A program made the translations under genes and the position numbers. Below are positions 2,791 through 23,645 of a stretch of 64,000 nt of DNA, one piece after another. Origin of the DNA: Zophobihabitans entericus (lineage in GTDB: Bacteria > Pseudomonadota > Gammaproteobacteria > Enterobacterales > Orbaceae); contig NZ_CP050253.1 of assembly GCF_011745665.1 (NCBI RefSeq), forward strand, positions 1,525,418-1,589,417, given 5' to 3'. Position 1 is the stretch's first letter, and every line of letters starts with the position of its first letter. The notes below the pieces were generated by a model. It worked only from the letters and a program-made list of their open reading frames with translations, was not told where the DNA came from and did no database searches.

Positions 2791-4620
2791 TTATTTGGGT
2801 AATTCTATCTTTTTAACAATGCTCAGATAAGGGTTGTTATAAGCAATATCTGGCATAAGAATAGTGGGGTCATTAAATAAATAGCCATGAACATAATTGC
2901 TTTTTCGTTGCCCTGAGACCTGGCATGTCCATATATTGAAGCCATCTGTGTTTTTTCTATGTACCTTCAGTGCTTCAAATTGCTTTTGCATCCAACGCCA
3001 ATTAACTAATTCTGCTTTTTTTGCCATTTCATTGACCAAAGGATATTCATTGGCGTACCGCATGAAAATACTTGGTGTTACCATAAAGACAGTATCGGCA
3101 ACGGTATGTATGCTTGCTTTAGAATCATTGATAATCAATTTATGGCTTAAAATCGCATCTTTGAGCCAAATTAAAAAATGCTCTCCTCCGGGGGTACCTT
3201 CAATTATATTTTGCGGAGGTTGAACAGGGGGTTTTGGTATAAATTGAACTTGTGATGCTTCAGGAACAGAAACCAGTGTAGGTGGTGGGGCTGTTATTTC
3301 TGTTAATGCTGGTTCAGAGCTACGACTATTATTTGCATTTGGTTCAAATAAATCGAGCAGCGAATCTAACCCTGTTGCCATACTCTCCCCTACCTGTGGG
3401 GCAAATTGATTCAAAACTGGTTCCTTACTTTGATTATTTGGGGCAATATTAGATTGTTCAGTTGATTCATTACTATCAGCCACAACTACTTGGCCAAGAT
3501 ATGATTCAGGTTTATCGGCGGTATTTTGCCAAATTAATCCAGGCACAACTTTTAAGAATGTGAAGTGGTTTGACCAACCAGTATCACTTTTAATTGTCGC
3601 ATTCCAGATTGCTTTATCTGAAGCCGTAGGTTGAATAATGGCGTGTTCTTGCAACACATCAAAGATAGCAGTATTGTTTTCTGGAATACCAGAAACGCCT
3701 TGTGACAAAAGATGTGCTCTTAATTTATCAGATACAGTTTTACTGACAAGCCATAAGGCATCATCAGTGAGCCAGCCATCTGAAGCAGTTGCTTGATTCA
3801 ATTTAAGCTGTTCTTTGATGATATAGCGTAAACCGTCTAATAGTTTTCGTTGGAGTGAATGTTTTGGGGCAGACATTGCTTTAGCAGGGTCTCCTCCAAG
3901 TTCTTGAGCGACCGAGGCTTGGTCGGCTTTTGTGACAATTTCACCTAAAACACCAGAATACTCGTGTTGACCTGAAAGTAGATATAACAATTGTTTCCAT
4001 AATTCAGGGTAATGATTGAGCCAATCTAAAATATGTTCATCTAAAATGGTGTTATAGAGTAATCCAGAAGCTGCGCCATGTAAGCGATATTCGCGATCTT
4101 TTCGGTACATAAAGCGGTAAGGTACGGTTAATTCACCATACCAAGGATGCCAAGTTTTCTGATCTATTGTTTCAACTTCAATGTCCACCGCAATTTTACC
4201 AATATCATGCAGCAAAGCAGAATACGCAATGGCAGCCGTCCATACCTCAGATTGTGCGGCTTGTTCTTCTGTACTGCTTCCAATTGGTAATAGGTAAGAC
4301 TGGCGCAATTTAAGCGCATAGGCAATAACTTCTAAGCCATGATCCAACATTCCACCGAGATATGAATGGTGATGTGACTCAGAGGCTGGAAACTGTTGTA
4401 CTAAAGAGGTATAACGTTCAATTGGTAACAAATAGAGTTTATTGAATATTGCACGAGATACAGCAGTGCGTTGCCAGATGAATTCGAGTAATTTTTTTCT
4501 TCTTGGCGTAGCAAGTAATACCTGTGCCTTTTCTGGTCTTAAGTAACCAGCAGGTATTACAGGCTCTTCTGTAATAACTGTTTCAGGCTCTGTTTTGCTT
4601 CTTTTAAAATATGAAAACAC
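2791..4620 (-). CDS. traI: MobH-family relaxase (TraI_2 / TraI_2_C domains)
   Basis: This 609-residue protein is the conjugative relaxase that nicks the ICE at oriT. The N-terminal HD-type metal-binding region is visible: HHH at residues 83-85, LDHGLEV at 92-98 and LLHDIGK at 136-142. A proline-rich linker (about 400-480) leads to the C-terminal TraI_2_C domain. The start is a GTG with an AGGA sequence nine bases upstream. MobH relaxases are the ones normally found with G-type ICE transfer systems, which agrees with the TIGR037xx genes to the right. The gene is transcribed away from the DUF3742 gene. Confidence 0.9.
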   Translation of the reverse strand: MFSYFKRSKTEPETVITEEPVIPAGYLRPEKAQVLLATPRRKKLLEFIWQRTAVSRAIFNKLYLLPIERYTSLVQQFPASESHHHSYLGGMLDHGLEVIAYALKLRQSYLLPIGSSTEEQAAQSEVWTAAIAYSALLHDIGKIAVDIEVETIDQKTWHPWYGELTVPYRFMYRKDREYRLHGAASGLLYNTILDEHILDWLNHYPELWKQLLYLLSGQHEYSGVLGEIVTKADQASVAQELGGDPAKAMSAPKHSLQRKLLDGLRYIIKEQLKLNQATASDGWLTDDALWLVSKTVSDKLRAHLLSQGVSGIPENNTAIFDVLQEHAIIQPTASDKAIWNATIKSDTGWSNHFTFLKVVPGLIWQNTADKPESYLGQVVVADSNESTEQSNIAPNNQSKEPVLNQFAPQVGESMATGLDSLLDLFEPNANNSRSSEPALTEITAPPPTLVSVPEASQVQFIPKPPVQPPQNIIEGTPGGEHFLIWLKDAILSHKLIINDSKASIHTVADTVFMVTPSIFMRYANEYPLVNEMAKKAELVNWRWMQKQFEALKVHRKNTDGFNIWTCQVSGQRKSNYVHGYLFNDPTILMPDIAYNNPYLSIVKKIELPK

Positions 4621-4746
4621 TCTTCTTTGTCCTTTTGGTTTTTCCTTTTTTGGGTAGACCCATTCCTCTTATAAACCATTCCCCTTATTGTGCCTTTTAA
4701 AACCTTTTTCCCTTTAAATTAATGCGAAATTAGATGAAATGTTTTC

Positions 4747-5175
4747 TTGCATCACAGATCATATGTGTTTATGATGAATAAAACTGATACATTATTAGGA
4801 TTGAATATTGTGAAAAAACTTAGCATTTCAGAGAGACTTGGGAGACTGTGCCGTAAGCTATGGCAGCAGGAACTACGTCTTGCTGCTTCGCTGGGAATGA
4901 GCACAAATTTAAGTAAAGTAATCTTAGTATTGTTGAATAGTGCAATTATTCTGACGGCGCTATATTTTGTTTATCCTTTACTAATTCTTATTGCAATTCT
5001 TCTCTTTGTTGATTGGAAAAATTTCGGTGGCTTAAGAGAGCCTAGTTTTTCAACGAATGGTCAGTTTGATGATGAATCAGACACAATCTTTGATTATGAA
5101 AAAGACCCTCGAAATCAAATCGGTTATGATCCTCTAACTTATACTCATGAATCAGACCCTCGTTTTGATGAATAA
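4747..5175 (+). CDS. DUF3742-family ICE membrane protein
   Basis: This 142-residue protein has an amphipathic N-terminus, a membrane segment (about residues 55-80, rich in L, I and V) and an acidic tail containing DYEKDPRNQIGYDP. This matches what I know of DUF3742 proteins, which sit beside traG in ICEs of this family. The start is uncertain: an alternative MMNKTDTLL start lies at 4771, and neither has a strong ribosome-binding site. It is the only plus-strand gene between the two minus-strand transfer genes. Role in conjugation unknown. Confidence 0.6.
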   Translation: MHHRSYVFMMNKTDTLLGLNIVKKLSISERLGRLCRKLWQQELRLAASLGMSTNLSKVILVLLNSAIILTALYFVYPLLILIAILLFVDWKNFGGLREPSFSTNGQFDDESDTIFDYEKDPRNQIGYDPLTYTHESDPRFDE

Positions 5176-10013: not shown

Positions 10014-10298
10014 TTATCCCCGATAAGGTAGTTCATTTTTATGTAAAACAGCTACAAATTCAATAGAGTCATTTTGCAGTTGAAAATAGATAACATGACT
10101 ACGAACTGGAAAACGGTAAACAGGCTCATCTGGAAGGTGTTTAATTGCAATATAAGGGTTTTCAGCAAGTAAGAGAAATTTATCTTTTAATAACTGAATA
10201 TAATCTTTGGCCTGTTTTGTACCCCATTCTAAAATAGAGTAGTCGTAAATATCGAGTAATTGGAATTCTACTCGAGTAGATATTATTAATTTAAGCAT
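10014..10298 (-). CDS. RelE/ParE-family toxin
   Basis: This 94-residue protein has the ParE/RelE fold pattern: an N-terminal strand, two helices (ILEWGTKQAKDYIQLLKDKFLLLAENP) and the C-terminal strands YRFPVRSHVIYFQ and IEFVAVLHKNELPYRG. It follows the antitoxin gene by 3 bp. ParE members poison gyrase and RelE members cleave mRNA; the sequence looks closer to ParE, but I cannot decide. It probably stabilises the ICE by post-segregational killing. Confidence 0.85.
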   Translation of the reverse strand: MLKLIISTRVEFQLLDIYDYSILEWGTKQAKDYIQLLKDKFLLLAENPYIAIKHLPDEPVYRFPVRSHVIYFQLQNDSIEFVAVLHKNELPYRG

Positions 10299-10301
10299 GG
10301 A

Positions 10302-10559
10302 TTATTTACTTAATATTTTATCAAATATAGCTGTACCTTCTGAGTATCTACCAGCTTTGATGTCTTCTTGTCCCAATTTAATTTGTTGTGCTTCATAGGC
10401 TGCTTTGAGCTTTTCTATAGAATCATACTGTTCAGCAGAGATCATCACCATCACTGGTTTACCATTCTTTGTGACTTGAATTGGGGTTGATTGTGCTTTG
10501 ATAATTGCTTCGCCAAAATGAGTTTTGGCATTGAAAGCTGTCATCGTTTCAATGGTCAT
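10302..10559 (-). CDS. Phd/YefM-type antitoxin
   Basis: This 85-residue protein carries the Phd/YefM DNA-binding half (TAFNAKTHFGEAIIKAQSTPIQVTKNGKPVMVMI). Its acidic, flexible C-terminus would wrap the toxin encoded next to it. AAGGAG precedes the ATG. The AT-rich palindrome-like stretch upstream (10575-10605, repeated TTAATTAA units) is a plausible autoregulatory operator. Confidence 0.85.
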   Translation of the reverse strand: MTIETMTAFNAKTHFGEAIIKAQSTPIQVTKNGKPVMVMISAEQYDSIEKLKAAYEAQQIKLGQEDIKAGRYSEGTAIFDKILSK

Positions 10560-10637
10560 AATATACTCCTTTTTTGATCAGATTAATTAAATTAATTAAT
10601 TTAACCAAATTGTATCTTTTTAGACACGTAATGACAA

Positions 10638-10690
10638 CAACTAAGTTGCTTCAGTTAGTTGTTTATTGACGAAAGTCCGAAATCGGACTT
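10638..10690. promoter_or_regulatory. Two inverted repeats upstream of the 10750-11604 operon
   Basis: CAACTAA (10638-10644) pairs with TTAGTTG (10655-10661). Just downstream, AAGTCCGA-AA-TCGGACTT (10673-10690) is a perfect 8-bp palindrome. Both lie 60-110 bp before the first gene of an operon whose second gene encodes an HTH protein, the usual layout for autorepression. Confidence 0.6.
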
Positions 10691-10749
10691 ATTATTCATT
10701 AAAAGTTTGGGAATTGTTCCAGACAACTTCATTAAGGGAGCAAAATTAA

Positions 10750-11172
10750 ATGGATATTTTGGCACATAATAAAGAGTTTCTTTGGGGTGGTGTACGTAAA
10801 GCCTGGATTGTTGTCAAAGACAAAAAGGTACTGGACATTATTCTCATGGATAATGATATTTATTTGGATAAAATTCCTAGTTGGGTTAAAGCTATTTATG
10901 ATCAATATCCTGCTATATTTTGTGTAGGAAAAGAAAATTGTACCTTTAATTTAAGTGAAATTAAAAAAATAGCAATTGAGGCTGGTCATCCTGAATTTGG
11001 CCCACGAGGCGGTAAAATTTCTCCTACTTCCATTTTATCCGAAGCAATGGATATTTACGAAGCTGAAAAAAAAGTGCAGTTTCTTAAACATCGAGAAAAA
11101 TCAAAATCATATTTAGCAAAATTGGGTAAGGTCATATCATGTAACTGTGACGCACAAAATGTATATTATTGA
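10750..11172 (+). CDS. Hypothetical protein in operon with Aca2-like regulator; candidate anti-CRISPR
   Basis: This 140-residue protein is preceded by GGGAG nine bases before the ATG. I recognise no family. It has a strand-rich N-terminal half (RKAWIVVKDKKVLDIILMDNDIY), a segment with two cysteines (AIFCVGKENC) and a charged helical C-terminus. It is followed at 12 bp by an HTH gene of the size and architecture of Aca2-type regulators and preceded by palindromic operators. Small unknown gene plus aca in a mobile element is the classic anti-CRISPR layout, but antitoxin- or ICE-specific roles are equally open. Confidence 0.5.
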   Translation: MDILAHNKEFLWGGVRKAWIVVKDKKVLDIILMDNDIYLDKIPSWVKAIYDQYPAIFCVGKENCTFNLSEIKKIAIEAGHPEFGPRGGKISPTSILSEAMDIYEAEKKVQFLKHREKSKSYLAKLGKVISCNCDAQNVYY

Positions 11173-11184
11173 TTGGATTTAAAA

Positions 11185-11604
11185 ATGATATTGAGTAAAG
11201 CAGAATTTAAAACGTTAAGAGAAGCGTTAGGCTTATCTATACAAGATTTGGCTAGGTGGGCAAAAGTAGATGAAAGGAGTGTTCGCCGTTGGGAAAGCTT
11301 TTCTGAGCAAAATATGCCTCCTAAGCAAGTTGCTCTAAATTTATTAAAGTTAGAGGCAGATATCAATTTTGTCGCAGAACAGGGCTTAATTATGGCACGA
11401 GAAAAGTACACGGAGCATACTGAACTGGAGAAAATCGTTTTAATTCGCTATAAAACCAATGAAGAACTTTGGCATGCTAAACCTGATATGAATGGATTAC
11501 CGACAACAACACATGCAGTCTTACTATTTAAAACAATGAATTTATTAAAAAATGCTGGTTTTGATGTAGTCATTGAGTACTTCGATAGCACACACTATTT
11601 TTAG
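11185..11604 (+). CDS. HTH regulator, Aca2/YdiL (DUF1870)-like
   Basis: This is a protein of about 139 residues. The N-terminal helix-turn-helix reads LREALGLSIQDLARWAKVDERSVRRWE, close in layout to DUF1870/Aca2 proteins. A helix (LLKLEADINFVAEQGL) and a C-terminal dimerisation-type part with IRYKTNEELWHAKP and HAVLLFKTMNLLKNAGFDVVIEYFD follow. I chose the ATG at 11185; an in-frame TTG at 11173 is possible. By analogy it represses its own operon through the palindromes at 10638-10690. Assignment to Aca2 is by architecture only. Confidence 0.6.
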   Translation: MILSKAEFKTLREALGLSIQDLARWAKVDERSVRRWESFSEQNMPPKQVALNLLKLEADINFVAEQGLIMAREKYTEHTELEKIVLIRYKTNEELWHAKPDMNGLPTTTHAVLLFKTMNLLKNAGFDVVIEYFDSTHYF

Positions 11605-11819
11605 CGAATAAGAGAGAAGATGTGCTTGAACAGGTCGGTCTGACACTCAAATATGAATATAGCTCTTAAGTTATCCTGTTTCTCGAATAACCAAAGTTCT
11701 TGCTCAATGAGCAATACTACATAGCTATTCTCTGAACAGTGTTCAATAGAATCATTTTCCTCATCAAGCAATAGATGAATAGTTTTACCATAGGCATTAA
11801 TCGTTATCATGACAAACAT
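11601..11819 (-). CDS. Small hypothetical protein
   Basis: A 72-residue ORF convergent with the HTH gene and overlapping its stop by 4 bp. Composition looks protein-like (YVVLLIEQELWLFEKQDNLRAIFIFE), but there is no clear ribosome-binding site before either ATG (11819 or 11810). Family unknown. It may be a genuine small ICE gene; I keep it at low confidence. Confidence 0.35.
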   Translation of the reverse strand: MFVMITINAYGKTIHLLLDEENDSIEHCSENSYVVLLIEQELWLFEKQDNLRAIFIFECQTDLFKHIFSLIR

Positions 11820-12034: not shown

Positions 12035-12035
12035 G

Positions 12036-12063
12036 AAAAAAGATACTCTTACAAGTATCTTTT
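12036..12063. terminator. Terminator hairpin flanking the repeat array, left
   Basis: AAAAGATACT-CTTAC-AAGTATCTTTT forms a 10-bp stem with T-tracts on both strands. It can end the small ORF transcript (+) and also any minus-strand transcript of the array. Confidence 0.65.
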
Positions 12064-12108
12064 CCCCCCCTTAATTACTCAAGAAGTAATTAATAATTTT
12101 AAAACAAT

Positions 12109-12324
12109 AGAAGCTGCCACTTATTCAGTGGTAAAAGATCAAGCATCCTACATGTTTTCTAAGCCGCCTATTCGGCGGTTAATTTACAACAAACATCATA
12201 CTTTCTAAGCTATCTATGAAAGATAACGTATATAGAAAAAGACTCATGTTTTCTAAGCCACTTATTCAGTGGTTAAGTATAGAATAAGACTTATATTTTC
12301 TAAGCTACTTGTTCAGTAGTTAAT
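12109..12324 (-). repeat. Five type I-F CRISPR-repeat-like hairpins, 47-bp period
   Basis: Units of 28 bp begin at 12109, 12156, 12202, 12250 and 12297 (plus strand), spaced 47, 46, 48 and 47 bp. Read on the minus strand, units 2, 4 and 5 match the I-F repeat plan: TTAAC start, 5-bp stem, 5-nt loop GAA(T/C)A, closing G, then the 3' handle CTTAGAAA. Stems differ but stay paired: CCGCC/GGCGG, CCACT/AGTGG, CTACT/AGTAG. Unit 3 keeps the handle with a shifted stem; unit 1 keeps the stem but lost the handle. Gaps are only 18-20 nt, and two of them resemble each other. No cas gene is in the window. Confidence 0.75.
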
Positions 12325-12428
12325 TTAAAAAGTATGGATATATAATAATCTATTTTAGTATGTTTTTTAAACAATTAAAGGGTGATTGAGATAAATTTAG
12401 TTATTCAAATATTATCAATTTATTTATG

Positions 12429-12457
12429 TAAAAAGATACTTTTTCAAGTATCTTTTC
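12429..12457. terminator. Terminator hairpin flanking the repeat array, right
   Basis: AAAAGATACT-TTTTC-AAGTATCTTTT has almost the same stem as the hairpin at 12036. On the minus strand it ends in TTTTT and can terminate the dsbA-like operon. Confidence 0.6.
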
Positions 12458-12489
12458 TCTCTTTTAAAATAGCACATCTTAATCAATAA

Positions 12490-23478: not shown

Positions 23479-23645
23479 CCCTCATATATTTTGAGGGTGG
23501 CAACACAAGACAGGGGTGGAATTTAGTCTACACAACTAACAGCCCGAAGGCTGCCCTGTCTGTGTCACCATTGAGCAAGGCGAACAGAAACAGACATGAC
23601 AATAATTTAGCCATGTTTGTGTAGACAAGGGATTCCACTCCCTTA
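23479..23645 (-). ncRNA. Structured 5' leader RNA, copy B (CACCATTGA class)
   Basis: The outer stem is long: the plus strand around 23513-23535 (GGGGTGGAATTTAGTCTACA) pairs with 23616-23643 (TGTGTAGAC...ATTCCACTCCC). Inside are the hairpin CAGCCCGAAGGCTG and the conserved CACCATTGA (23566-23574). Another hairpin, CCCTCA/TGAGGG (23479-23497), lies just before the AGGAGG of the downstream gene. The motif is 109 nt from the start codon. Confidence 0.6.

Follow-up and report, generated by a model that had tools for sequence, protein, structure and literature searches.

What does a small two-gene operon set behind palindromes, with a run of CRISPR-like repeats a few hundred base pairs away, contribute to the mobile element that carries it? 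We analyzed a window of 64,000 nucleotides from Zophobihabitans entericus. It encodes a MOBH-type TraI_2 relaxase, TraC, TraU, and a DUF1525 (trbC-like) protein, and its tyrosine integrase adjoins tRNA-Gly; from this relaxase, these transfer genes, and an integrase beside a tRNA gene we conclude that the element is an ICE. In the elements of four relatives the transfer operon runs uninterrupted from traC through one ~125-aa ORF and the trbC-like gene to traU, while in the Z. entericus ICE a cargo of ~2.7 kb sits in the traC-traU interval, with a GC content of 31.3% vs 40-44% in its flanks and no similar DNA among plasmids. The cargo holds a Phd/ParE-type pair on the minus strand (10014-10559; ParE-type toxin 10014-10298, Phd/YefM antitoxin 10302-10559, both by profile match), the two-gene operon encoding P1 and P2, a cluster of repeats mimicking those of type I-F CRISPR, and, on the strand of the repeats and downstream of them, an acidic orphan ORF of 72 aa (11601-11819, minus), for which Pfam, NCBIfam, PADLOC, and PHROGs gave nothing useful. 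We consider it a plausible counter-defense island: a counter-defense role for the cargo is rather likely, and the fuller reading that we prefer, with chances slightly below even, is that 9.8-12.5 kb constitutes counter-defense and stability cargo of the ICE, in which an RNA decoy array accompanies a candidate acr-aca operon.

The operon comprises ORF1 (P1; 10750-11172, plus strand, ATG start, 140 aa, AGGGAG ribosome site) and ORF2 (P2; 11185-11604, plus strand, ATG start, 139 aa); the gap of 12 nt between the stop of one and the start of the other, on the same strand, makes an operon plausible. A first-pass annotation of this DNA had described a two-gene operon behind two inverted repeats, and this description is correct. 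IR1, AAGTCCGAAATCGGACTT (10673-10690), reads AAGTCCGA-AA-TCGGACTT, with perfect 8-bp arms about a 2-nt loop; IR2, AACAACTAA-N10-TTAGTTGTT (10636-10663), has 9-bp arms that are perfect as well. IR1 fills the 18-nt spacer between the -35 and -10 elements of TTGACG-18-TATTAT (10666-10695, plus strand), the predicted operon promoter by consensus match only; this site scores 10/12, joint best as one of three such sites in a region where promoter-like sites are barely above chance (20 vs 14.3 expected). IR1 is unique in the 64 kb at ≤3 mismatches (shuffled sequences gave a mean of 0.14 sites), and is the predicted operator of P2; the annotation's palindromic operator finds its place inside the core promoter.

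In silico, this is the layout of acr-aca loci: an HTH gene 3' of a small gene, in one operon, with an inverted repeat in the core promoter. Aca promoters always have one inverted repeat within the core promoter, and where they have a second it resembles the first (PMC9410906); the P1-P2 promoter shares the in-core repeat, whereas IR2 is unlike IR1 in sequence and lies directly upstream of the ORF1 promoter and of the divergent toxin-antitoxin promoter, between the two. A further, AT-rich palindrome at 10582-10604, downstream of the -10 element of the divergent Phd/ParE-type operon, is probably that operon's own operator.

The product of the second gene is predicted to fold as an N-terminal Xre-HTH followed by a C-terminal alpha-beta dimerization domain (139 aa; AlphaFold2 model from P2 plus three viral relatives, pLDDT 89.3, pTM 0.81). 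The closest structural match to this model is SO3848 of Shewanella oneidensis (2ox6; Z 17.1, 1.5 Å over 135 residues), followed by Aca2 (7vjo; Z 13.5 over 117 residues) and YdiL (1s4k; Z 12.5); after YdiL come Aca10 and Aca1, covered over the HTH alone, and Foldseek agrees with this ranking. In tblastn searches, full-length relatives at ~30% identity were found on plasmids of Prescottella, where they are annotated DUF1870, and of Ahniella (one protein), and among the HTH proteins of mycobacteriophages; a four-sequence profile of P2 and its relatives retrieves solved Aca2 chains (E 4e-5), and profile comparison of P2 with YdiL gives a probability of 91. The Aca2-like two-domain layout that the first-pass annotation had recognized is therefore upheld by structure and profile, but the HMM search against Aca2/DUF1870 that it proposed as a check fails: P2 has no match to Pfam Aca2_YdiL (PF08965) at E≤1, Pfam detects only an Xre-type HTH slightly below cut-off, and across the genome the Aca2_YdiL model finds solely the chromosomal YdiL at C1:778759, missing P2, as it finds YdiL in many relatives. 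Since the predicted fold matches SO3848 and Aca2 over both domains where the Pfam model fails, we consider P2 a putative Aca2-superfamily autorepressor outside PF08965, carrying what the model indicates is an Aca2-type dimerization domain nearest to that of SO3848. It is likely that P2 autorepresses the predicted P1-P2 promoter. If our reading of the locus is right, the Aca2 fold group would widen to include regulators missed by the Pfam model. A conserved neighbor of P2-like genes was sought and none was found, those examined having differing neighbors, and most class-level profile matches to P2 share the HTH alone.

P1 is a basic protein (pI 8.6) that had been called unrecognized, and so it stays throughout the collections searched: P1 matches nothing in Pfam, NCBIfam, or PADLOC and nothing meaningful in PHROGs or the PDB; even with an E cutoff of 10, plasmids and phages yield no homologue, nor do 198 relatives or the genome and viral contigs, and in 369 genomes of the class P1 finds only itself. 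Its single-sequence fold model (pLDDT 32) is too poor for a structure search. With no homologue of any kind in these collections, P1 shows no detected homology to CRISPR-Cas inhibitors, and no repeated association of it with Acrs or with P2-like genes is seen; it is by context only that P1 is a candidate anti-defense effector. Guilt by association with an aca gene, to which the first-pass annotation appealed, is weak evidence alone when the neighbor is Aca2-like, because of 1223 Aca2-like proteins only 35 (~3%) are encoded behind an acr; the Acrs that accompany Aca2 include AcrIF8 and AcrIF9 (PMC9410906). That P1 is itself an anti-CRISPR is possible and, in our estimate, rather doubtful.

Two known systems frame this operon. 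Like P2, SO3848 is encoded by the second gene of its pair, and an inverted repeat precedes the genes close to the promoter; unlike P2, to which it is 17% identical, it is not in a mobile element and has no repeat mimics nearby, and its partner is an SMI1/KNR4-family gene with no known acr (PMC8434428), a family to which P1 has no detected Pfam match. Loci of the acr-aca2 kind, such as acrIF8-aca2 in Pectobacterium phage ZF40, likewise join a small gene to a regulator of the Aca2 fold under a core promoter that contains an inverted repeat, but P2 is ~18% identical to Aca2, P1 is unrelated by sequence to any solved Acr, the second repeat does not resemble the first, and the carrier is an ICE where theirs is a phage.

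The SO3848 locus also suggests the most durable alternative, in which P1-P2 is an ordinary ICE cargo operon, P2 autoregulating an unrelated accessory gene and the closeness to the repeat mimics being due to chance. The nearest structure to P2 belonging to a locus of that kind, and the scarcity of acr genes among Aca2-like neighbors, are as this alternative would have them; however, anti-defense genes cluster, viruses showing an enrichment of candidate RNA anti-CRISPR (racr) genes at up to 1 kb from acr genes (PMC10651486), and the cargo is small, holding only such items and a toxin-antitoxin pair. We regard ordinary cargo as a credible minority explanation. A toxin-first toxin-antitoxin module in the HigBA or MqsRA order, with P1 as basic toxin and P2 as HTH antitoxin and autorepressor, would also account for the order of the two genes and the lone palindrome in their promoter: toxin-antitoxin and acr-aca loci share their organization (PMC9410906), the HTH domains of HigA2 and MqsA are among the fold matches of P2, the pI of P1 suits a toxin, and a ParE/Phd pair adjoins the operon. 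Yet P1 matches no toxin family in Pfam, NCBIfam, or PADLOC, and the C-terminal domain of P2 matches the Aca2/SO3848 dimerization domain and not a toxin-binding domain, HigA and MqsA matching over the HTH only; such a module is unlikely.

The better clue to counter-defense is the cluster of repeat mimics rather than the Aca2-like partner. The cluster (12109-12324, minus strand) begins 505 bp past ORF2, so that the I-F-repeat-like array reported ~500 bp away is indeed there, and three of its units score 37.9, 33.6, and 30.0 bits against Rfam CRISPR-DR4 (gathering score 35); it is, however, not an ordinary I-F array but a short-period mimic cluster. Where a canonical array has near-identical 28-nt repeats, ~32-nt spacers, and a 60-nt period, this one has five mimics, all different, at a period of 46-48 nt (~47), and its spacers are therefore ~19 nt long, spacers 1 and 2 being near-duplicates. 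On the minus strand, mimics 1 and 2 are ATTAACTACTGAACAAGTAGCTTAGAAA (12297-12324) and CTTAACCACTGAATAAGTGGCTTAGAAA (12250-12277); mimic 3 (12202-12230) is diverged, with a TATCT-TTCAT-AGATA hairpin present in the MFE structure; mimic 4, ATTAACCGCCGAATAGGCGGCTTAGAAA (12156-12183), exceeds the Rfam gathering score; and mimic 5, the leader-distal unit (12109-12136), keeps its hairpin with a degenerate tail. The handle CTTAGAAA is kept in the other four of the five units, mimic 3 included. Stems vary among units yet pair (CUACU/AGUAG, CCACU/AGUGG, UAUCU/AGAUA, CCGCC/GGCGG), and the 301-nt array RNA, which a terminator-like hairpin closes (12035-12064, minus strand), folds with a z of -4.4; a related copy of this hairpin lies upstream near 12425-12467. 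Directly upstream of the array is a promoter-like site (12342-12371, minus strand) with a 9/12 match, a score near chance frequency. There is no IR1-like site near this promoter, which makes control of the array by P2 through an IR1-type operator improbable, and array and operon are probably not co-regulated by that route.

No cas genes lie near the array, and neither the window nor the array region of the host nor the I-F loci of ten relatives contain a seed-plus-PAM match to its spacers longer than 7 nt; the matches are chance-level 7-nt seeds and AT-rich exact matches of 12-14 nt. Like RacrIF1 (PMC10651486), the array, a putative decoy, mimics I-F repeats and is carried by a mobile element that lacks cas genes, and it is Racr-like in every feature tested save solitude. 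RacrIF1 is solitary, and its RNA, lacking a 5' handle, recruits only Cas6f and Cas7f, whereas the units of the ICE array are five in number and clustered, with 5' handles and with spacers of ~19 nt. We think it probable that the array acts as an RNA anti-CRISPR. Mini-CRISPR arrays borne by viruses (PMC6858448; review PMC11656645) similarly have few repeats, a mobile-element carrier, and no cas genes, but their repeats are identical to those of the host and their spacers are directed against related viruses, in contrast to the differing repeats and short spacers without a target found here.

This form of cluster recurs. We scanned viral and genome contigs with a pattern fixing only the handles and loop: two perfect hairpins were present in 16 of 34 viral loci (four of the 16 being two duplicate pairs), none with neighbors at 60 nt, and periods peaked at 46-50 nt (12/16), while a complement-pattern control gave double perfect hairpins in none of 17 loci. 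Across 27 mimic units all stem cells (100%) pair, a fraction biased upward because the viral units were preselected for hairpins; the double changes by which three of the five pairs vary are still informative, and covariation over these units is 0.456 vs 0.228 in shuffled and ≤0.156 in slid controls. Other mimic pairs or clusters of short period (44-50 nt) without cas genes are found in viral contigs (L032, L033, L038, L041, L042, L045, L051/L060, L053, L055, L063, L064, L065, and L208), among them six near-identical units at 44 nt in L064, four at 48 nt in L038, and three further units at 46 and 48 nt in L208; two genome contigs, L066 and L108, also carry short-period mimics without cas genes. 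The Racr survey threw out full matches <100 bp from each other (PMC10651486), and short-period clusters would have escaped it for that reason. If our reading is true, a recurrent form is absent from the RNA anti-CRISPR catalogue, clustered repeats having been discarded in the published search. A gene family with 36-50% identity among its members and no Pfam match lies directly upstream of the mimic clusters in three of the viral contigs (array-oriented coordinates: L033 1-756, L038 6549-7400, L065 65-685), and is a candidate linked anti-defense or phage gene.

One cluster stands beside an established inhibitor. In Aggregatibacter kilianii (NZ_NRCJ01000012.1, 4279-4754; L077), an AcrIF9 homologue (4521-4754, minus; E 1.8e-39 to 7bb5), which only the PDB sequence search found, is followed 74 nt downstream by 4-5 mimic units on its own strand. 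Homologues of AcrIF9 in two other viral contigs, both phages, have no mimic array, and in the subset of viral mimic arrays whose neighbors were scanned for Acr families there was no match in Pfam, PHROGs, or NCBIfam. Upstream in the Aggregatibacter locus are two small genes and an RHH-like gene, which may be further anti-defense genes; searches with two further genes beside the AcrIF9 homologue gave nothing.

Type I-F effector genes are common among relatives, Csy3 being present in 26 of the 60 genomes searched, and the host genome has neither Csy3 nor Csy4. The host retains two orphan type I-F arrays (C1:1274268-1274355 and C1:1283485-1283692 of genome G000; 769-856 and 9985-10193 in L011), with similar leaders, a 60-nt period, one and three spacers, a repeat that differs from the mimics, and no cas genes between or near them; it seems to have lost its I-F effector. 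We rejected a decayed native array as the origin of the mimics, the host's own repeats being GTTCACTGCTGCATAAGCAGTTTAGAAA at a 60-nt period.

The weakest alternative, which we consider quite improbable, makes the cluster a guide-bearing element: an ordinary I-F array in decay, a mini-array aimed at rival elements, or a guide RNA that works as in CreTA or represses cas genes. In its favor, handles and hairpins are crRNA-like, CreA genes likewise contain two diverged I-F repeats outside an array (PMC10097628), and diverged I-F repeat pairs with 53- and 55-nt periods in Photorhabdus caribbeanensis (L087) and Acinetobacter puyangensis (L113) adjoin long ORFs resembling I-F cas2-3 by reading, as CreTA would, and are possibly CreTA-type modules and not mobile-element decoys; but the period here is 46-48 and not 60 nt, the repeats all differ, spacers 1 and 2 nearly coincide, CreTA is located within cas loci and directs Cascade to the RNA of its own toxin while the ICE array has no cas genes nearby and no seed-plus-PAM match longer than 7 nt to a toxin promoter or cas target in the sequences searched, a CreT would poison a cas-less host, and decay would not preserve stem pairing through double changes.

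On our preferred reading of counter-defense cargo, P1-P2 and the mimic array would be two adjacent, separately controlled units. On entry of the ICE into a new cell P1 would be produced as a burst, until P2, once made, binds IR1 as a dimer between the -35 and -10 elements and shuts the promoter; P1 would be a small inhibitor of host defense, most plausibly of type I-F CRISPR-Cas. The array, transcribed on the minus strand into an RNA of ~290 nt, would act as a constitutive decoy, cut by the recipient's Cas6f into crRNA-like pieces with a normal 5' handle and a ~19-nt spacer that trap Csy proteins in undersized, target-less complexes. Type I-F complexes have one Cas7f per 6 nt of spacer, and spacers ~12 nt short would leave them two Cas7f subunits short. 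Counting against this reading are a present host without Csy3 or Csy4, the lack of a P1 homologue, the varied neighbors of P2-like genes, the dissimilarity of the two inverted repeats, the small share (3%) of Aca2-like genes behind an acr, the two AcrIF9-bearing phages without an array, and an array promoter without an IR1-like site.

We suggest, more speculatively, that mobile elements carry a distinct class of RNA anti-CRISPR, with 2-6 clustered I-F mimics, intact 5' handles, and ~18-22-nt spacers, which would form complete but undersized Csy complexes unlike the handle-less RacrIF1 subcomplex. Just as the cluster in Aggregatibacter stands next to acrIF9, the one in the Z. entericus ICE would have a protein anti-CRISPR for its partner, P1, a new family governed by a regulator of the Aca2 fold. 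If this is so, an ICE, and not phages alone, pairs RNA and protein CRISPR inhibitors, and a simple pattern suffices to find clustered mimics and to flag loci for novel protein anti-CRISPRs such as P1.

Elsewhere inside the ICE are two matches to C4 antisense RNA, the immunity RNA of phage P1/P7 type (2570-2653 and 23493-23575, minus strand), both above the Rfam gathering score. Upstream of the ICE transfer genes, positions 1-2269 of the window (and contig L012) hold a long run of Rhs/polymorphic-toxin-like repeats with small immunity-like genes.
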